Source: Diphasiastrum complanatum
Taxonomy: Eukaryota > Streptophyta > Lycopodiopsida > Lycopodiales > Lycopodiaceae
DNA: 64,000 bases
Direction of reading: 5' to 3'
Assembly (NCBI GenBank): GCA_029204225.1
Contig: CM055095.1
Coordinates: 40,416,141-40,480,140 of the forward strand
Shown here one piece after another: positions 3,737 through 20,260 of this stretch. The notes beneath the pieces were generated by a model that saw only the letters and a list, made by a program, of their open reading frames with translations, was not told the DNA's origin and ran no database searches. The translations under genes and the position numbers were made by a program. The stretch's first letter is position 1. The number at the start of each line of letters is the position of its first letter.

Positions 3737-6336
3737 TGTACCCGAATGTATCTTAGAATCCTCTTAGCCTTTTTCCAATGGATATTCAATGGCTTTTGCA
3801 TGGATTGGCTCAACCTACATACACTAAAGCTAAGATCTGGTCTAGTTATAGTGATCCACATTAAGAAACCTATAAGTTGCCTAAACAAAGTGATGTCCAT
3901 GAAGGATCTTTCATCACCTTCATTTGGCACTTTTACATCTTGCTCCATTGGTGTGTCAACACTTTTGCATACTTCCATCTTAAACTTCTTCAAAAGACTT
4001 TGAGCATAGTTTACTTGACTTATAAAGATAAGATCAGACCCTCTAAGTACTTCTATGCCTAAGATGAAGTGAAGACACCCTAGATCTACCATCTTGAACT
4101 CTAAGAATAGATCTATCTTGATTTTTTCAATACCATCAACACTATTTTCACTAATGATGATGTCATCTACATAAATGAGTAAAAGTACAATACCAACATC
4201 ATCAAACTGAATGTAAAGAGTGAGATCATATTCACTTTGAACAAAAGAAAGTGAAATAAGATAGCAATGTAGTCTTGAATTCCAAGATCTCGAGGCTTGC
4301 TTCAAGCCATAGATGCTTCTTTGGAGATGACATACTTTGTTCTCCATTCCATGCTTGATGAACCCTTGTGGCTGCTCCATATAGATATCCTCTTCCAAAA
4401 AACCATTCAAGAGAGCATTAGAGACATCCATTTGACATAGAATCGATCCAAAATGTGATGCAAGTGCAATGATTAGCCTTATTGTAACCATCTTGGCCAC
4501 GGGTGCAAAAGTTTCCTCATAGTCTATCCCTCTCTCTTGAGCATAACCTTTTGCAACTAATTTTGCTTTATGTTTGTTAACACTCCCATTTGCATTCAAC
4601 TTAAGCTTGAAGACCCACTTGCATCCTCTTACATTCCTTTGAGGTCTCTCAACAAGCAACCAAGTTTCATTCTCAATCAAGGCATCATACTCATCCAACA
4701 TAGCTTTATACCATTCTTTGGAGTTCAATGCATCTTCAACATTAGATGGTTCTTCAAAACTAGATAAAGCATAAGAAGTGGATGAGATACCCTCAACTTG
4801 CTGTCCTTTGCCTTGATATGTGAGCCTTGATGGCTCCACTTTTGCCCTTGAAGATCTCCTTGGTGTAATAGGTGGGTTTGGTGCTTGCTCCTCCATGAGC
4901 TCCTCCTCAAAACCAAGATCTTGCTCCTCGGCCATCTTCTTCTTGATTGTTGGAGCACTTGAGCCTTCTTCAAGCATATGCATATGATGTTCATCAAAGA
5001 TGACATCCCTTGAAACAACAAATTTGTTCAAGGATGGGAGATAGACTTTGTAGCCCTTGCTTGAGCTTGCATATCCAAGCATGATCCCTCTTGTGGAAGA
5101 TGGATCCTCCTTGGTTCTTGTTTCCAATGGCACATGCACATAACATATACACCCAAAAACTTTCAAGTGATTAAGATTGGGTTTCTTTCCATACAACATC
5201 TCATAAGGAGTTTTGCCTTCAATTGCTTTGCAAGACACCCTATTCATCAAGTAGTTTGCACATACAAGAGACTGACCCCAAAAGGATTTGGGCAAACAAG
5301 CATCTAATCTTAAAGCCTTAGAACATTCACATAATGTTCTATTCCTTCTTTCAGCAACTCCATTTTGTTGAGGAGTGTAAGGACAAGAAGTCTCTTTCTT
5401 GATCCCTTCCTCCTCACAAAAGGCCTTGAACTCATTGGAGATGAATTCTCCACCATTGTCACTTCTAAGAATCTTGATGCTATGATTATGATGCTTTTCC
5501 ACAAACAACTTGAACTTTACAAAAGTGTCAAATACTCGAGACTTGAAGAAAAGTAAGAACACCCAACAATATCTTGAGTAGTCATCAATGAAGGTTAAAA
5601 ACATGGATGAACCTCCATTAGATTTGGTGCTAGCAATGTGCACATCCGAGTGTATGAGTTCAAGAGGATGAGATGACTTTGTGATGGAGTTAGGAAACAC
5701 CTTCTTATGTGCCTTGGATAAGGCACAAGCTTCACAAACCTTGTCTTCCTTCCCAATAGACCTTGGTAGGCCTAAAGCATACTCCTCCTTGATCATAGCC
5801 TCCATGGAACCCGAGTTGACATGTCCAAGTCTTTTGTGCCATAAAGTAAAGGTAGATATCTTGCTCTTCTCGGCCAACATGACAACATTAGTATCCACAA
5901 ATGCATCCAACTTATAAAGTTTGCCAAGTCTAGTGCCCTTAGCCACTATCTTACCCTTCTTCTTGATGAAACATTCATTTGAAGCAAAGTCAACATTGAA
6001 ACCATTGTCTACCATTTGGCCAACACTTAGTAGATTCTTTGTTATTGTAGGAATGTACAAAACACCTTCTATGTTGATCTTTTTGGAAGATCCTAAGCAA
6101 AGGGGAATGCTACCAACTCCTTCAATCTTACAAGCTTCATCATTTGCTGTAGAGATAGACTTTATAGGTCCATCATAAGATAAGAGAGAAGAGAAAAATT
6201 CTCTTTTACTAGTCATGTGTGAACTAGCACCCGAGTCAATCCACCAAGGATCTTTACCTTTGAAGCTTGTTGAAGAAAATATGGACATCATGAGAGAGTC
6301 CTCATGTGAACTCTCCTCCTCCTCCTCTTTGCTCAT
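3703..6336 (-). pseudogene. Copia-A pol polyprotein: protease, integrase, reverse transcriptase
   Basis: An 877-residue frame. Retropepsin (WIDSGASSHMT) is near residues 32-42. The GAG-pre-integrase motif LWHKRLGHVN follows. The integrase core keeps its three acidic residues in IHSDVH, LRSDNGGEF and NGVAERRN. Copia reverse transcriptase runs from CKWVFKLK through YGLKQASR to the catalytic YVDDIIIS. It stays open from protease to the end of reverse transcriptase. It lacks gag upstream and RNase H is shifted out of frame, so it is coding-like but not a full working polyprotein. A stop replaces the last Cys of the zinc knuckle just upstream. Confidence 0.92.
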
Positions 6337-8779: not shown

Positions 8780-9403
8780 TTCTATGTTCTATTATGGCGG
8801 TCTCCCATCTAATAGAATTAGAAGGATCCTAAAATGTGTTGTGTAGGGTGAGTATGAGTAGGATCCACTCTATTCATGGTTTCTATTGTTTGTCTATGGG
8901 TTCTTCTATGGCGGTCTCCCAACTAGAAGAGAACTAAAAATGAAAGAATGAATAAACTACACCAAGGCGATCTCCCTATTAGTGTAATGCAAGGGACTAA
9001 ACAAATCCTAAACTAACTCCACAAGGGAATGGAAGCAAAGTGAACGAAAGATAATCCCATAATAACATTCACATAAATTAACCAAATGAGGAAAGCTTAG
9101 TGGGGCTCGAGCACCTACCACCAAGTATTCTATCCACAAGTGGGAACACAAGTTGCATGCATAAAGAATCACAAAAATGTCTTTATTATCACAATGCTTA
9201 TACAAGTGTTGTTGGAGGCCCAAATCCACTCCCATATATAGAAAGAGTGGTGGGCCTAAGCTTAAACATGCTTATGGGACTAAGTCCAAACTTAAAGCTA
9301 ACTAACTTGTGCACTTACACTAACTTAGAATTAAACTTACCTTGAACTTAGGGAAAACACATGCCACAATAATTCCTATGTTGGGCTAACATAAGGGACA
9401 ACA
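8780..9403 (-). repeat. Probable LTR of a minus-strand element
   Basis: Non-coding sequence with repeated GGCGGTCTCCCAACTAG-like words. It ends GGGACAACA next to TTATCCCCCTCTTT, which on the minus strand is a polypurine tract followed by TGTTGTCCC. That is the layout of a 3' LTR. The same GGCGGTCTCCCAACTAG word occurs near 18226, where similar DNA precedes another copia fragment. The outer boundary was not found. Confidence 0.45.
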
Positions 9404-9711
9404 TTATCCCCCTCTTTATTGGATTGGCGGTCCCATGCCGATGGCAGCTGCTCTTTGTCGAGTTGTGTCGTCATAGGTCTCCTTATTGAGGGTGACTCTG
9501 ATGGCATGCAGCTCTTTGCCAACGTGCTCCAACATTTGCCACCGTAGCTTGTTCAAAAAGGGCCGCGGGCCATAATAGTAGAGCATGTTCTGGAGGAAGC
9601 CATGTGGTGCCCGATTTCCATCATGTCGACATGTAGGGCACTTGTCATGGCCGCATGGGATGAAGATTAAAAACTGATTAGTCGATTAGTAGGAAGGAGA
9701 ATAATCCAACA
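9404..9711. other. Non-coding remnant ending at a Copia-B LTR edge
   Basis: GC-richer DNA without a recognised gene. It ends CCAACA directly before a polypurine tract (minus strand AAGGAGGAG), so its last part is probably the end of the Copia-B 3' LTR. Confidence 0.4.
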
Positions 9712-9718
9712 CTCCTCC

Positions 9719-11017
9719 TTAATCTGAATCCATGAATGCCTTGACCTTCAAACTTAGTTCCGCACAGAACTTTTTGTGTGCTTCCAAGCTTAATGCTTTA
9801 GTAAAAATATCCGTTGTCATATCTTGCGTTCGATAGTACTGCAATTTGACCTCTTTGTCGAGAACTTTGTTTCTGACATAGTGATACTTCAGTTCAATGT
9901 GCTTACTCCTAGAATGAGCTATAGGGTTGGCTGACAAGGCAATGGCACTTTGATTCTCACAAAATAATGATGTCGGAGCATATTGATTCAGACTGATATC
10001 TAAAAGTAAGTCTCTCAACCAAATTGCTTCCTTTGCAGCTTGAGAGGTTGCGATATACTCTGATTCTGTAGAAGATAGAGCTATCGAAGATTGCTTGCGA
10101 CCGTTCCAGGAAATTGGACCATTGTTGAGGAAGAATGCAAATCCAGAAGTGGATTTATGAGTGTCTACATCTCCTGCCCAACTTGCATCTGTAAAACCAA
10201 TGAGTAAATTGAGTTTGTCATTGTCTATTGCTCAATAACAAATGCAAAAGTCCATAGTAGCTCGAAGATATCTCATGGCTCTGATAAGAGCCTTCCAATG
10301 TGTCACACCAGGGTTGGCCATATACTGACTTAGGGAGCTGACTGCAAAAGCTATGTCTGGCCTGGTACAGATCATGGCGTACACAAGAGATCCTATAATA
10401 GAACGGTAATGATACTCATGCATCTGCTCCTTTTCTTGAATTGTTTGAGGACACTTGTCCTTTGACAATTTGAGACCTAATTCCATTGGTGAGAGAGGCA
10501 ACGTGCAATTAACCAGATTATATCTGACTAACATATTGTAAATGTACCTCTGTTGAGTAATGTATATCAACTTATGTTTTCTGTCTCTGTGGATTTGAAT
10601 ACCAAGGCAAAAATGAGCTTCGCCCAGATCGGTCATGTCGAATTCGGAAGATAGCATTGTCTTGGCCTCTTTTATCATGTCGGTACTATTGTTGAAAAGC
10701 AATGTATCATCCACGTATAAAGTAATAATGATAAAAGACTGTTGTACTGCTTTGAAGTAAACATTGGAATCTGAAGAGCTAGGTGTGTAGTCGTGATCAA
10801 TAAGAAAAGTACTGATCCTTTGAAACCATGCTCGAGCATATTGCTTCAAGCCATTAAGTGCCTTATGGAGTTTACACACATGATTGTGTTTACCCTTGAT
10901 AATGTAACCTTCGGGTTGCACCATGTAAATGTCTTCTTTGATAACTCCATTGAGATATGTTATCTGTACATCCATTTGATGTATTTCCAAATCTGCTGCA
11001 ACAACAAACGATAGCAA
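9719..11017 (-). pseudogene. Copia-B reverse transcriptase and RNase H
   Basis: Reverse transcriptase (10232-11017) shows DVQITYLNG, LNGLKQYARAW, LYVDDTLLF at the active site and SIIGSLVYAMICTRPDIAFAVS. After a stop near 10230, RNase H continues to 9719 with DASWAGD, SSIALSSTESEYIA, FCENQSAIALSANPIAHSRSKHIE and TDIFTKAL. The catalytic Asp pair is intact but the stop separates the domains. The N-terminal part of reverse transcriptase beyond 11017 is degenerate. Confidence 0.87.
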
Positions 11018-13216: not shown

Positions 13217-13365
13217 TGTCGGAAATAGGTGAGTAATAGAATATCAAAAACTTCCTACTTCCAATGCATGACTACGCTTATCAATATTGAACAAAACAAT
13301 AGTGATGGAAATCACGTTCAATCTTTAGTAACTAACCTTGAAATCGCTAGAAACTAAGTGATTAC
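13217..13365 (-). repeat. Copia-B 5' LTR, truncated
   Basis: Begins TGTCGGAAATAGG immediately after the primer site. The matching end is not found before the plus-strand copia integrase begins at 13366, so the LTR appears cut. Confidence 0.5.
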
Positions 13366-14275
13366 GTGGGTAAGATGTCACGTACTCCTTTTGTCAAGGA
13401 CTCCTTCAGAACGACAAAGATTCTAGAGCTACTACATTCAGACATTTGTGGACCTTTCAACATGATCTCAATAGGAGGCTCGAAATACTATATCACCTTT
13501 ATTGATGATTGCAGTAAGTTTTCCAGAGTCTACTTCATTCACAATAAATCAGATGCATTTGACAAATTCACAGAGTTTGTGAACTGGACAGAAAGATGCA
13601 CAAAAAACAAGGTGAAACAGATCAGAACTTATCGGGGTGGAGAATACATCTCAAATCGATTTACTGATTTCTACAATAATCAAGGAATCATTCACAGAAG
13701 GACAACATCCTATACACCGCAGCACAATGGTCTTGCGAAAAGAAAGAACATGACTCTTATGGAAGCCGTTAGCTGCATGATGGCCTATTTGAAGGCTCCA
13801 AGAGTGTTGTGGCCTGAAGCAGTAGCTACAGCTGCTTACATTTAGAATAGGACAGGAAAATCTGGTGTTCCTCATACAACACCACACGAACTATGGTGGG
13901 GTGAGAAACCCAATCTGACTCATATTGGAATCTTTGGTTGTGCAGCATATGCACATGTTCCTGACAAGCTTTGAAAGAATCTTGATGAGAAAGCAGAACA
14001 AGGATATCTTGTAGGATATGACAATCATTCGTCATATTACATCATCTATATGCTAGAGACAAACACAGTGAAGACAATCAGAGACGTCAAGTTCGATGAG
14101 AGCAGAACAATGGCCAACAATGATCTTGTCAGTTATGAAGTCCTTGGAAGACAATATTATGATCTACCAAACGTGACAAAGGGAGCAGAGGACAAACACT
14201 CAGATGAAGATGTTCGAGTCACGAGCGACAAATCAGACGAAGAAAGATTCACAAGCCTACTGCTACAACACTTGT
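13366..14275 (+). pseudogene. Copia-C integrase and following linker
   Basis: Plus-strand copia integrase: LLHSDICGPF (first Asp), YYITFIDDCSKF, and a second site that reads IRTYRGGEYI, where Tyr replaces the usual catalytic Asp. SYTPQHNGLAKRKN follows with Lys at the usual Glu. Two of three catalytic residues are therefore lost. Stops occur at 13843-13845 and 13972-13974. The frame continues through WWGEKPNLTHI and VRDVKFDES-type sequence. It lacks gag and protease upstream, beginning abruptly at the Copia-B boundary. Confidence 0.85.
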
Positions 14276-14379
14276 AAACCAAAATGGTTCTGGAGCTAGC
14301 AGAACAGATAAAGACAAGAGCATTGCAATACCAGAAGGATCTGCTAGAAGATCACAAGAGAACAAAGAGCACCAGCAAG

Positions 14380-15567
14380 ATTTGTGTTACTATTTGCATA
14401 TGCAGCCGCTTATGATCTCAAGATTCACATCGTGGATGAGAAAATTGTTCTTACATGGTGAGCTAGACGAAGAAGTCTACATGGATCAACCTCCAGGCTA
14501 CATTTCGAATGCAAAATGCACATGAGTATCTACGGCCTGAAGCAATCAACGCGACAATGGTATAAGAAGATAGATCAAGCCCTAAAATCCTTAGGATTCA
14601 AGCCACTAATAGCTGATTCCAATGTTTTGTAAGAATTACAGATGGGAAGATCATCATTATAGTTGTATATGTGGATGACACTCTGATACTCTGCAAAAGT
14701 AAAGAACTTATTGCTGAGGTGAAGTATGACATCTCGAAACATTTTGAGATCACAAACCTAGGGGAAGCCAGATATTATCTTGGCTTACAGATTGATAGAG
14801 ACTATGACAAAGAGAAATTGTACCTTCATCAGTCCAGATATACCCAAAAAATCCTAGAAGATTTTGGGATGATGAATTGCAAAGGAGAAAATACTCCAAT
14901 GCTTGCAGGAACAATCCTGACAAATGAAGATTGCTCGAAGACTGAAGAAGAAAGAGAATTGATGGAGCATACACCATATAGGAAGTTAATCGGATCACTA
15001 ATGTATCTTGCAGATAACACACGTCCTGACATTGCTTATGCCGTGTTCAGAATGAGCCAATTCAGTACAAATCTAGACTCGACTCATTGGAAGATCGCAA
15101 AATGAATCTTGCAATACCTTCAATTAAATAAGCATTTTGGATTGTGTTATTCTCGTGATGCAGGGTTCCAGATGCTTTCATACAGTGATGCTAGCTGGGC
15201 ATCTCTCAAGGACGACTGCAAAAGTGTCTCGGGAGGATGTACCATCACATCAGGAGCAGCAATTCTCTGGGTTTGCAAAAAGCAGACCATCGTGGCTCAG
15301 TCATCCTACGAAGCAGAGTACGTAGCAACAACAAATATGGCCAATGAAATCACTTGGTTCAAACAGTTCCTTGACGAACAAGGTGAAAAGAAGATGGTTG
15401 CTATCTTCACAAAGGCCTTAGACAAAGGTCTGTTCGAGAAACAAAGGAGCAGTTTTGGAGTCATCAAGCTATTACGCTTTGAGAGGGAGCTGAAGAAACA
15501 AAATGTTTCTGTTATTAAAGCTCTACTAGCTCTTGACTCCCAACCTGATGAAAAGACACGAAAATGA
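14380..15567 (+). pseudogene. Copia-C reverse transcriptase and RNase H, broken
   Basis: Pieces of copia reverse transcriptase appear with several frame changes: LDEEVYMDQPPGY, MSIYGLKQSTRQWYKKID, VDDTLILCKSKE (Tyr-Val-Asp-Asp site at about 14668-14679) and LADNTRPDIAYAVFRMSQF. A stop at 15103-15105 precedes RNase H (SYSDASWASLKDDCKSVSGG, TIVAQSSYEAEYVA). The RNase H then loses its middle and jumps to FTKALDKGLFEKQ, an internal deletion. The frame ends at 15567, about 165 bases before the H3-Ulp1 gene. Confidence 0.85.
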
Positions 15568-15731
15568 AATGTTCATGAACAACATGAACAATAGGAGAAA
15601 GTCAAACGACACGAAGAGAAAATGTTCGCGACACAACAGGAGTCAAACAATGCGAAGCGACACAAATTTTTTTGTTTTGATCCACGTTTGTTCTGTTCAA
15701 ACTTCTTTTTGTTAATTTTCTTCTTCCGAGA
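15568..15731 (+). promoter_or_regulatory. Presumed 5' leader of the H3-Ulp1 gene
   Basis: Between the end of copia RNase H and the H3-like start codon. The last 60 bases are pyrimidine-rich (TTTTTGTTAATTTTCTTCTTCC), as in many plant leaders. No clear TATA box was identified, so the promoter may lie within the copia sequence. Confidence 0.3.
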
Positions 15732-17841
15732 ATGATGGCCAGGACCAAATGCACCGCCCGTGCCATCACCACTGTACAACCATCCCATTCCTGTATTCCC
15801 CCTGGTATTGGCCGTAGGCATGGCAAGAAGCAAGTCTGGCTGAGGGAGATCAGAAAACTTCAGAGATCAACTGAATTGTTGATCCCTAGAGCTCCTTTCG
15901 GTCGATCTGTATGGAATGTCACTCTGTTATTTGGGCTGGATGTTCCTTTTGTCATGATAGGCATGCAGGCCTTGCAGGGTGCTGCAGAAGATTTTTTGTC
16001 CCAGTTTTTTGAGGATACTTGTCTTTTGGCAGTGCATGGTAAGCGTGTCACCATCATGCCAAAGGATTTTGTCATTCTCAAAAGGCTTCGGGACAAATAT
16101 TCTGGTCTGCATGTTGATAATGTCGGCACCTCCAGAGACCTGCCTCTAGATAGAACCAACGTGCCTATTATCTCTAGGAGGAAGAGAAAGCAGGTTGTCC
16201 CCAAGAAGGCTGAATCTCGAAGGCCAGCTGCTTCCCTTCCTCCTATACATATCTCGGCCAAGAGACCTCGTGTCTTCCTGAGCTCTGAGTCAGATGCTGG
16301 AGAATCTGACTCAGATCGAGAATTTTCACCCAGTCCTCCTCCTGTTATTCGTCCAGCTCCTCAGCAGGTTTCATCACCAAAAGTATTGATTACCCAAGAG
16401 GAGCTAGACCAAATAATAGAGAAATCTGTAAATATTCTTTTCACTTTTGTTTTTGCTCCTGTACATAATGTTTTTGTGAGAATTCCATACGATCCAGCCC
16501 AAGTTTTTTTTTATTCTGACCATTATAATCAATACGAGGCCTACCTAGCTAGCAACATTGATCTTCTTGACAACTTTTTTGATTTTTTTCTTCTAGATAC
16601 ACGTATAAGCTTTAGATTAGGTCCCAAATTTTGTGTCGAGCTAAAAGATAAGACCTCAAAAATTTCAGATGCAATAGTAGAGGCTGGAGTTTCTTTTTTG
16701 CAGAATAGTATTAGTTTCGATTCTCGTGGTACAGTTTTTGTAGTTAGTCCATTTTTCATGGGAGCGATAAAGGCGAAAGAAGCCAATTTTGAGAAGGCTG
16801 TCTATTTTATCGAGTGCAGTCTTATGGCGAAACCTTATTTGATTCCATATGAAAATAAGTAAGGATTGCTCTTTTGTTTTTGTTGCTTTAATCTGGATTG
16901 TTGCATGTGTCATTGCTTTAATAAGAACGGAATTTTTTCATAAATATGAACTTAACAATATTTGTATCTTGGCTGTTGCAGTCGGCATTGGAGCCTAAAC
17001 ATTCTTTTTGTAAAGATAAATAAGGAGGGAGTATCAAATTTTCTATGTGTGAAAATAAACTCAGCTGCAAATACACATAGAGAATTTGATTCTCTACTTC
17101 ATGATGCCGTTCGGGAAATACCGACAACGACAATTTCAATTGGAGATATAACCATTAAATCTCTCAAGGTATATTCAATTTATCTCAGATATGCATGTAT
17201 TTCTTTTTTAATTCAAATGTATCGTCATAGCATAAATAAAATTTCTATCATAATATTACTAATTTTCGTTCTGTATATGTAGTGTGTACAGCAAAATGAC
17301 GTTTTTAGTTGTGCATGGTTCGTCTTGTACAATACGAAGCTATTTTTTGAATGGTATAATTTACAAACGGATGTAGATATTGAAAAGGTAATATTCTATT
17401 CATTTGTAGTTCATTTCATTCTGATTCATATTTTATTACTATCATTGTTTGTAATTTGCTGATTCTTGTGTTTTGTGATGACAGTTCACTCTTGAGCTGT
17501 ATACTCCTGATGATGTATATAGATTTTGGCAAGAGTTAATCAGAACCTTTGCTCAGTACGGTGTAAGCGTTGCACCTGCAATCAAGGGCCCTCAAAAGGA
17601 AGCTGCTCCTGTCTTAACAGCCTTTCAGGTTGTTCAGGATGCAGATATTATTTCATATGATCAAAAAGGAATAAAAGTCCTTCCTAATACAGAGGAAGGC
17701 AATTTTGTAGCAGATATTTCTCTTGTCTTAAAAGGCATTGAGGCCCTTCCCGAAACAAAAGAGGGTGAGATTTTAGAAGGAGCTATTGATTCATCAGTTC
17801 CTAATACTGATATAGAAAATATAGAAAAATTGATTGAATAG
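15732..17841 (+). CDS. Histone H3-like / Ulp1 (C48) SUMO-protease fusion protein
   Basis: Predicted exons are 15732-16858, 16982-17168, 17283-17387 and 17485-17841. All introns are GT-AG and the join is open for 591 residues. Residues 3-10 read ARTKCTAR, a histone H3 N-terminus. Residues 38-121 form an H3 fold (LREIRK, STELLI, ALQGAAEDFL, FEDT, HGKRVTIMPKD) with no loop-1 insertion. A basic cluster (149-164), an acidic serine patch (184-196) and a proline-rich segment follow. Residues about 248-475 fit Ulp1/SENP peptidase: DFF helix, SPFFMGAI, LIPYENNRHWSL with His378, EFDSL with Asp412, and QQNDVFSC with Gln442 and Cys448. Gln-Cys spacing is six, as in yeast Ulp1. Residues 474-591 are an unassigned tail. 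Inference: a chromatin-targeted deSUMOylase. A second Met at codon 2 would expose ARTK after processing. Expression and splicing are unproven; pseudogene or transposon cargo remain possible. Confidence 0.82.
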
Positions 17842-18215
17842 AGATCTATTTGTAAATCGAGAGACATATAAGAAAAAAGATACAATCATTTTACTTGTAA
17901 GCAACTCGTTTATGGGTTTTTTTTCATTGATATCACAATAGATTCTTACAATCAGCTTGTGTCCATAGTCTAATAATGGAATGCAATTTTTCTATAATGA
18001 TAAAAAGACATTGGCATGTATTTGCCGATAGTGAATCTCAATGTTCTTCCATAAGTTAGAATTAGTACAGAGTTTGTATTAGAAAGTTTTGATTGAAACT
18101 ATTCATAAAAGATCGAGTGTTTAAAGACTTACGAGTTTACCATTGAAAATGAATCTGAAGTCTGAAAGTACATCATCTTGTAGGAGCAATAGTTTCTGCC
18201 GAATGTAGTTTAGAC
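17842..18215. other. 3' flank of the H3-Ulp1 gene
   Basis: AT-rich non-coding DNA with no recognised gene. It probably contains the 3' untranslated region. No strong AATAAA signal was identified. Confidence 0.3.
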
Positions 18216-18911
18216 TAGCGTATATGGCGGTCTCCCAACTAGCATGCACTATGGCTTAATCCAACTAGCATGGCTGGCCAAGGGATAGCATGGTGGTGAG
18301 TATTGTGAGGGTAAGATCCACTTTTTCTTGCATAAGCTCATATTGTTGCTAACACAAATGAGAAAATACTATTAAGAAATCCTAGATTAATCACTATGGC
18401 TGCCCCAACTAGTGGCTAAGATTAAATCTAAAGATGAAACCCTAATCTTCCTTGAATCCCAACCCTTAATTTGAGGCATTCCCTTCCAAACTAAGGTGGC
18501 TATCCTATACTCTCTCTTGAGGCTTACCCAACCAAGAGGACACAACTAACTCAATATTAATATATTTCATACAAGATGGGAAGATCCAAAATGTAGAATT
18601 CCTCTACAAGTGTTCGCCTACAAATGAGCTCTCCACATTGACTTATACTTGGAGGCCCTTGTTTTACAAAGAACCGTCAAAAACTTGAAACCTAATAATT
18701 TAGTTAAGTTACAAGCCGTAGTAATTTAAGTACAGAACTAAGTCACTTACAATAGGTTTCATGGGACAAACCCCCAATGGACCATATGACTTATTTTTAT
18801 AAGTTAGGTTCCATGGGACAGACCCCCAATGGACCTAAGCTAGAGTCCCCTTAAATAATATGACTTGAACTAATTTGAATTATCATATGGCTAGAATATT
18901 CATAGGGAATA
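18216..18911 (-). repeat. LTR-like DNA related to 8780-9403
   Basis: Contains GGCGGTCTCCCAACTAG, a GTGAGGGTAAGATCCACT-type word and TTGGAGGCCC. These are also found, in the same order, at 8780-9403. It lies immediately 3' (minus strand) of the Copia-D fragment, so it may be that element's 3' LTR. Ends were not resolved. Confidence 0.4.
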
Positions 18912-20260
18912 TTATCCTACAGATGGTTTTGAGTTTGATTTTGCAAGTTTCGAGTTCGATTCTGATTCGAACTTTTCTGCTGGAATTCGAACTGGTGATT
19001 CGAGTTTGTCAAGTACTCGATCTTGACCTCTCTCTGAATCTGGTAATTCTCTTTCATCTTCTGCTTGTTTTACTTCTGTCAACGTTGGTAGCTCATAATA
19101 GTTTTTGAGAATTTCATAGCCGACTAGATCACTGTCTGCTATGTATTTCGACTCATCAAATTTAACATCTCGAACAACTTTTATCTTGCGAGTTTCGGGT
19201 ACATAGACAAGATAATATGACGAACGTAACTCGAATCCTACCAGAAAACCTTGTTCTGTCTTTTCATCGAGTTTCTTTCTCAGCTTATCTGGTATGTGCA
19301 TATACACTGCGCATCCGAATGTCCGGACATGTGTTAGATTTGGCTTCGACTTCCACCATATCTCATGAGGAGTTTTATCCGGTATTCGAGATTTCAAGAT
19401 AGATTCTAAAGATAATTTGATGTAGCCACTACTTCTGCTCACAAATGTTTTGGTGCTTTCGCATGAGCCATCATACACCTTGCAGCTTCCATCAGTGTAC
19501 GATTCCTTCGTTCAGCTATTCCATTGTGCTGAGGTGTGTAAGATGCAGTCTTCATGTGCATAATACCTCGATCAGTGCAATAACCTTTGAATTCGTTGGA
19601 AATGTACTCACCTCCACGATCTGTGTGAATTTGCTATAGCTTATTGCTTGTCTGCTTCTCAGCCCAATTCGTATACTCAATGAATTTCTCGAAAGCTTCA
19701 GATTTAGTACGAATAAAGTATACTACAGCGAACTTGCTGAAGTCATCAATAAACGTAATGAAGTACTGTGCATCACCCAACGACAATACTCCGAATGGTC
19801 CACAATTATCTGAATGCACAATTTCAAGTACCTTAGTTGCTTTATAAACATCCTTACTGAAAGGTGTTCTAGTCATCTTGCCTTTAAGACAAGATTCGAA
19901 AGTAGTTCGAATATCTCTACTTTTGATTTCGACTCGAATTCTCTGACTTTTGTTGGCTTGGTACAAGGCTTCCATGTTCATGTGACATAGCCTCTTGTGC
20001 CACAGTACATCTGTTGATTCCTGAGTTTGATTGACTTGTTCGATTCTTGTTCGAATGTTCAGGTGATATAAATTTCCTTATCTGTTGCCTTTAGCAACCA
20101 GGTTATCAGAATCTTCCTCGAACAGTTTACAAGAGTTCTTCGTGAAGGTTACTGACATGCCTGTATCGATTATCTTAGCAACAGATAGAAGATCTTTATC
20201 AAGAGTAGGACATAGAAAACTTCCTCCAGTTTCTTGTCTCCCTGATTCGTGTCTAATCAT
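18912..20260 (-). pseudogene. Copia-D protease-integrase fragment
   Basis: Minus-strand copia segment in three frames. The protease end is FLCPTLDKDLLSVAKIIDTGM (20078-20260). Integrase at 19634-19981 shows TRTPFSKDVYKATK, VHSDNCGPFG and FITFIDDFSKF. The integrase tail at 18912-19478 shows KTPHEIWWKSKPNLTHVRTFGCAVY and VRDVKFDES. It shares the wording of Copia-C closely, so both come from related families, but lies in the opposite orientation. No reverse transcriptase remains. Confidence 0.85.

Follow-up and report, generated by a model that had tools for sequence, protein, structure and literature searches.

A histone H3-like/C48-like protease fusion as the second gene of an abundant DNA transposon in Diphasiastrum complanatum, with a putative anti-silencing role

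The window analysed here, a stretch of 64,000 nucleotides from contig CM055095.1 of the lycopod Diphasiastrum complanatum, carries a spliced frame in which a histone H3-like module is followed by a C48-like (Ulp1/SENP-type) protease, and the locus raises the question of whether the two parts make one protein, to which genetic unit that protein belongs and what it would do. The initial annotation described a single spliced gene whose H3-like part would tether a deSUMOylase to chromatin or, if incorporated, bring a protease into the nucleosome. The fusion in one spliced frame stood, but as part of a high-copy DNA transposon, in which it is the second gene, and not as a single host gene; tethering of the protease to chromatin may still fairly be inferred, now on the transposon's behalf. 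The features of the locus are given below.

15663..18216, forward strand: DNA transposon fragment that retains the H3-protease gene but neither the transposase nor the inverted ends
15732-17841, forward strand: H3-like/C48-like fusion gene in four exons, 1,776 bases when joined, equal to 591 codons and a stop
15732..16858, forward strand: exon 1, encoding the H3-like tail and fold (residues 1-121), a charged linker and the start of the protease
16859..16981, forward strand: intron 1, GT-AG, with GT in 25/30 and AG in 27/30 aligned copies
16982..17168, forward strand: exon 2, protease part with His378, Asn402 and Asp412
17169..17282, forward strand: intron 2, GT-AG, with GT in 30/30 and AG in 22/30 aligned copies
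17283..17387, forward strand: exon 3, protease part with Gln442 and Cys448
17388..17484, forward strand: intron 3, GT-AG, with GT in 27/30 and AG in 23/30 aligned copies
17485..17841, forward strand: exon 4, C-terminal part of the protease, acidic C-terminus and stop (17839-17841)

When the exons were rejoined, the four exons, the three GT-AG introns and the 591 open codons originally proposed were all recovered, and His378, Asp412, Gln442 and Cys448 were found at the residue numbers originally given. Splice sites and residues were counted in a set of 30 aligned copies, made up of the window copy and 29 loci. Of the 30, only the window copy has joined exons free of a premature stop, and the majority frame of the window family was free of internal stops. 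A chance origin of the gene model was excluded, since the same sequence occurs at 39 other scored places in the genome.

The H3 domain was supported by a Pfam match of the window protein to PF00125 (residues 28-116, E = 5.5e-19, 69.1 bits against a cut-off of 26.4), and the best relatives of the N-terminal part in the PDB were H3 chains, with a best E of 1.2e-19 among the best 60 of 181 matches. The fold was identical to the canonical H3 of the same genome (L002) at 46 of 88 positions, in keeping with the earlier estimate by eye of about half identity to plant H3. Among the 24 copies with a tail, A1, R2, T3, K4 and R8 were found in 22, 17, 22, 23 and 12, respectively, with Ala at position 9 in 22 and Ile at position 10 in all 24; the tail thus retains most of ARTKxTAR and is 13 residues shorter than that of the host H3. 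Within the fold, H113 and D123 were present in 29/29 copies each, K115 in 28/29 and R116 in 18/29. R72 was found in 21/26 copies and R83 in 12/26, the window copy having Trp and Pro at these positions, respectively, while position 63 was Pro in 22/26 and the interface positions L126 and I130 were occupied by I and L instead. The roles of the scored H3 residues, with H113, D123 and others as H3-H3 or H3-H4 interface positions, are those that we take to hold for H3 in general. Compared with core histone H3, the module shares the full fold, the ARTKxTAR start of the tail and, in most copies, H113, K115, T118 and D123, but differs in being about half identical, in the loss of K9, in its short tail and in being fused to a protease and borne by a transposon.

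The protease assignment fared less evenly. The window protein matched PF02902 at residues 375-475 below the cut-off (E = 0.098, 12.9 bits against 20.7), whereas the protease of a second family in this genome (L086) exceeded it with 27.8 bits when its pieces were joined at the inferred junctions. All six members of A1 matched PF02902 at E <= 5, the best at 2e-4. Cys448 and Gln442 were conserved in 30/30 copies, Asp412 in 29/30 and His378 in 27/30, and the active-site His, Gln and Cys were retained in the second family too. Asp412 is present as annotated, but its role as the third catalytic residue is uncertain and Asn402 may be the better placed relative to His, being nearer to the His-to-Asp spacing that we take to be usual in C48 and that is likewise seen in P0002, an environmental protein considered below. 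The protease part alone (residues 225-500) had no relative at E <= 1, and no C48 structure was found for it in the PDB by sequence. A genome-wide PF02902 search gave three matches, none from the window family, which it misses because the domain is split by exons.

A DNA query covering window positions 15500-18100 returned 3,691 first-look candidates in the 1.74 Gb genome, and the 40 that were scored comprised the window itself and 39 others with matching sequence. The near copies were 89-94% alike to the window copy, with the exception of one on C387 at about 99%; this copy (98.7% alike) is rearranged and lies beside sequence matching window positions 8893-10285. Similarly, PF00125 returned 6,325 first-look candidates in the same genome, and the 150 rows listed included 13 canonical H3 genes, most of the remaining rows scoring 95-110 bits. 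The window aligns with the other copies between 15661-15663 and 18216, the other copies continuing past both points, and a search of the window for the other parts of the unit present in the C23 copy found none. The window copy is a truncated, decaying orphan remnant of a very abundant DNA transposon and probably has no present function. Broken frames flank the fragment (13351-15567 on the forward strand, 18912-20077 on the reverse), and by eye these resemble the integrase, reverse transcriptase and RNase H of a Copia retrotransposon.

Two copies, C23 and C3, were extended outwards, and the limits of the transposon were established from its recurring ends. The 3' end recurred with 19 distinct flanks, and among the 7,688 candidates of a 3'-end DNA query, all 39 other scored matches stopped at query positions 714-734. 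The 5' end, CATTA, recurred with 9 distinct flanks; 36 of the 39 other scored matches to a 5'-end query started at positions 1-4 and 3 started further in. This query began 3 bases outside the element end and eight matches start at its first base; it is the distinct flanks, and not the query match starts alone, that fix the 5' end. The inverted ends of the C23 copy were 80% alike over 46 columns (E = 0.001) and bound a unit of 10.06 kb. Both ends and the H3-protease gene were found within one unit in C23 and C4, the H3 in C4 lacking its initial part. None of four independent units (C23, C7, C13 and C4) showed a target-site duplication; C6 is a twin of C7 with identical flanks, and for C1289 no 5' end could be located. 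A 296-codon open frame lies between the transposase and the H3-protease gene of the C23 unit (L039, minus strand, about 4354-5241), and a similar frame is present in L077. At L002 and L003 (C11), canonical host H3 genes have an end of this transposon about 1.3 kb away.

Other kinds of element were also considered. The 3' end appeared Helitron-like at first, but the Helitron assignment was rejected on finding that the 5' end CATTA is an inverted copy of the 3' end, the features looked for being a 5' TC, a 3' hairpin with CTRR and the absence of inverted ends. An LTR element was rejected because the two sides of the C23 copy share no direct repeat, and a viral origin after viral contigs yielded no confirmed relative of either P0002 or the transposase family. 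Similarly, no relative of P0009 was confirmed in prokaryote contigs, and a search of the literature on Diphasiastrum complanatum found no genome paper with a Helitron.

The transposase was found upstream of the H3-protease gene and on the same strand in the C23 copy and in seven of the 29 loci, each taken with only 1.5 kb of flank (L013, L014, L023, L034, L035, L036 and L037, three of these being near-duplicate pairs); at L017, transposase sequence lies on the opposite strand. When the transposase P0008 was searched against the genome, 19,057 candidates were obtained and 57 places were scored. After 13 canonical and 3 partial rows had been dropped, 134 of the 150 listed H3-like rows were compared with these 57 places, giving four pairs within 15 kb where 0.13 were expected, all on the same strand with the H3 1.6-2.9 kb downstream of the transposase; C9 carries two of these pairs, one of which may duplicate the other. 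Comparison of 34 of the 40 5'-end query rows with the H3 places gave two pairs: the first follows the expected order, and in the second, a window-family 5' piece upstream of an H3 place, the strands are opposite. The H3-protease gene is the second gene of the transposon, downstream of the transposase and on the same strand. The transposase itself has a RAG1/Transib-type fold according to the fold predicted for an environmental relative. An hmmsearch of the A2 transposase profile against the PDB gave three matches, none of them RAG1, and of 44 weak Pfam names, the 25 shown included no transposase family. The candidate catalytic residues, assigned by eye, included a first Asp in 22/22 rows with any residue at that place, a second Asp in 24/25 and a Glu in only 6 of the 10 rows reaching its position.

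Short stretches examined at eight listed H3 places yielded at least four non-canonical kinds, namely the window family (L082), the L085-L087 type, the type of L056, L057, L081 and L084, and L080. In the L086 family, a protease with HW, QQND and NCGW lies downstream of the H3; it is 39% identical to the window protease over the aligned part, and its matches break at two exon junctions equivalent to those of the window gene, while the H3 parts of the two families were identical at 64 of 103 compared codons. No protease match was found at L056 and L057. These two and L079 (C156, C17) belong to a second repeat family whose protein begins with ARTKQTAR, followed by a very long stretch rich in proline and by an H3 fold, and L080 (C13:7458050-7458450) is a further, more diverged H3-like sequence. 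The shared order of H3 and protease and the equivalent junctions in the L086 family indicate, at the level of sequence, that the H3-like and C48-like parts are genuinely fused in a single spliced frame and that this is an ancient arrangement, older than the divergence of at least two families of this genome.

The selection analysis gave different results within and between families. The window copy carries 60 nonsynonymous and 20 synonymous changes, the neutral ratio being 2.58, and drifts neutrally. Singletons across the window family numbered 422 nonsynonymous to 146 synonymous, against the same neutral expectation, and variants in at least five copies 61 to 33 (p = 0.08, one-sided). Codon positions 1, 2 and 3 differed within the window family by 0.056, 0.052 and 0.047, respectively, and introns diverged no faster (0.042 versus 0.052). 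Between the window family and L086, however, the H3 codon positions differed by 0.33, 0.28 and 0.58, and between the window family and the host H3 by 0.47, 0.36 and 0.64. The constraint between families argues that the ancestral gene worked, and together with the neutrality within the family it shows a gene that was under constraint as the transposon lineage evolved and whose individual copies decay once inserted.

Where copies were functional, their protein may have protected the transposon from silencing by the host. By pairing with host H4, its H3 part would reach chromatin, or it would instead occupy H3 chaperones, and the C48 part would strip SUMO or a similar modifier from nearby silencing proteins. 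Such a tail could bear K4 marks, as most of ARTKxTAR is retained, but not the K9 silencing mark, given Ala at position 9, Ile at position 10 and the missing 13 residues. The gene would thus encode an accessory chromatin factor, probably with an anti-silencing function, by analogy with the ULP1-bearing VANDAL transposons, and may represent a new route by which a transposon acts on host chromatin. The full reading, in which a plant DNA transposon, present in high copy number and bounded by inverted ends, carries the fusion as an accessory to its RAG1/Transib-type transposase and uses it against silencing, is judged to have about an even chance of being correct. Points against it are the failure of sequence searches to link the window family's protease part to C48 structures or to P0002, the imperfect H3 module, with Pro at position 63 in most copies and Arg at 83 in 12/26, the incomplete H3 of the C4 unit, a RAG1 likeness drawn from a predicted fold and not seen by sequence profiles, and the missing target-site duplications. 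A more specific version, in which nucleosomes containing a transposon-made H3 with K4 kept and K9 absent escape the K9 mark and, through the SUMO-type protease, shed SUMO-dependent silencers, is put forward tentatively and is rather doubtful; if true, it would make a histone a transposon weapon.

Several alternatives were weighed against the anti-silencing reading. The H3-like and protease parts might be separate genes that never form one protein, but the H3 fold, the linker and roughly the first 145 protease-side residues share one stop-free exon, and the H3-then-protease order is repeated in the second family and in P0002, making this extremely improbable. Adoption of the window copy by the host as a working gene is very unlikely. 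Its frame is the sole open one among the 30 aligned copies, and about 3.4 stops would be expected from its changes, with a chance of about 0.03 of having none; nevertheless, its 60:20 ratio is set against the neutral 2.58, its private changes number 21 to 4 (p = 0.26), and chance would be expected to leave about one copy in 30 open, this one having been picked by the earlier reader for being so.

The fusion might also be a captured host gene pair that was amplified passively and never worked for the transposon. Every copy examined decays neutrally after insertion, and host pieces are common in plant transposons. A Culex Helentron carries dead histone fragments, as far as the available text of PMC4067079 describes. 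The retention of the fusion and of its His, Gln and Cys by two families with well-diverged H3, the uneven codon-position differences between them (0.33, 0.28 and 0.58) and the majority frame without an internal stop argue against passive capture, which is considered unlikely. A part in the transposition machinery, with the H3-like module docking the transposase complex on nucleosomes or chaperones and the protease trimming the complex, would suit the fixed position beside the transposase gene. RAG2, the animal partner of RAG1, reads H3K4me3 according to the accessible part of PMC8355894, so that an H3-tailed partner would make good sense as a connection; such a part is nevertheless improbable.

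The anti-silencing reading was compared with known systems. VANDAL transposons carry ULP1 together with VANC anti-silencing proteins, the role of ULP1 itself being undefined in the available portion of PMC13317346. The Kaonashi and VANDAL MULEs (KIU, VANC) resemble the present element as plant DNA transposons with an accessory C48 gene and a link to escape from silencing, as outlined in the accessible sections of PMC13317346 and PMC6117577, but they have another transposase family and no histone domain, and inverted ends are present in the H3-protease element. The RAG1/RAG2-like (ProtoRAG, RAGL) and Transib transposons share the predicted transposase fold and ends beginning with CA, and RAGL also has a second gene adjoining the transposase; this gene is RAG2 in RAGL and H3-protease here, and the present element lacks a RAG1 sequence match and any visible target-site duplication, a 5 bp duplication being typical of Transib and RAG transposons in the parts available of PMC4411706 and PMC8355894. 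Transib-like proteins are known from plants, 39 being counted in the available text of PMC9435367. ULP1-bearing plant transposons are thus already known, whereas in the open-access literature searched no description was found of a transposon with a maintained histone gene, or of one with such a gene in its own set beside a RAG1-fold transposase. If true, the anti-silencing reading would connect histone tails and SUMO with the silencing of transposons in a way open to testing. It would also add a RAG1-fold branch whose partner acts on chromatin, which would bear on the origin of the histone-reading partners in RAG transposons.

The environmental protein P0002 (549 residues) has PF00125 followed by PF02902 in one chain and resembles the fusion in this order of H3 and C48 in a single protein, but its H3 is near-canonical and kinship of the proteases is unsupported, hhalign of the protease profile against P0002 giving a probability of 0.2%. 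Culex Helentrons also bear histone sequence, though as broken H4 and H1 fragments in eight copies according to the available part of PMC4067079, in contrast to the ancestrally open, constrained H3 fusion of the present element with its thousands of candidate places. Two Helitron-like sequences were additionally observed: outside the C23 unit, a frame at L055:127-405 resembles the C-terminus of a Helitron helicase by eye, with no Pfam match, and at G000:C19:33997427-33997933 a Helitron_like_N match lies within an open frame of 3,591 residues.
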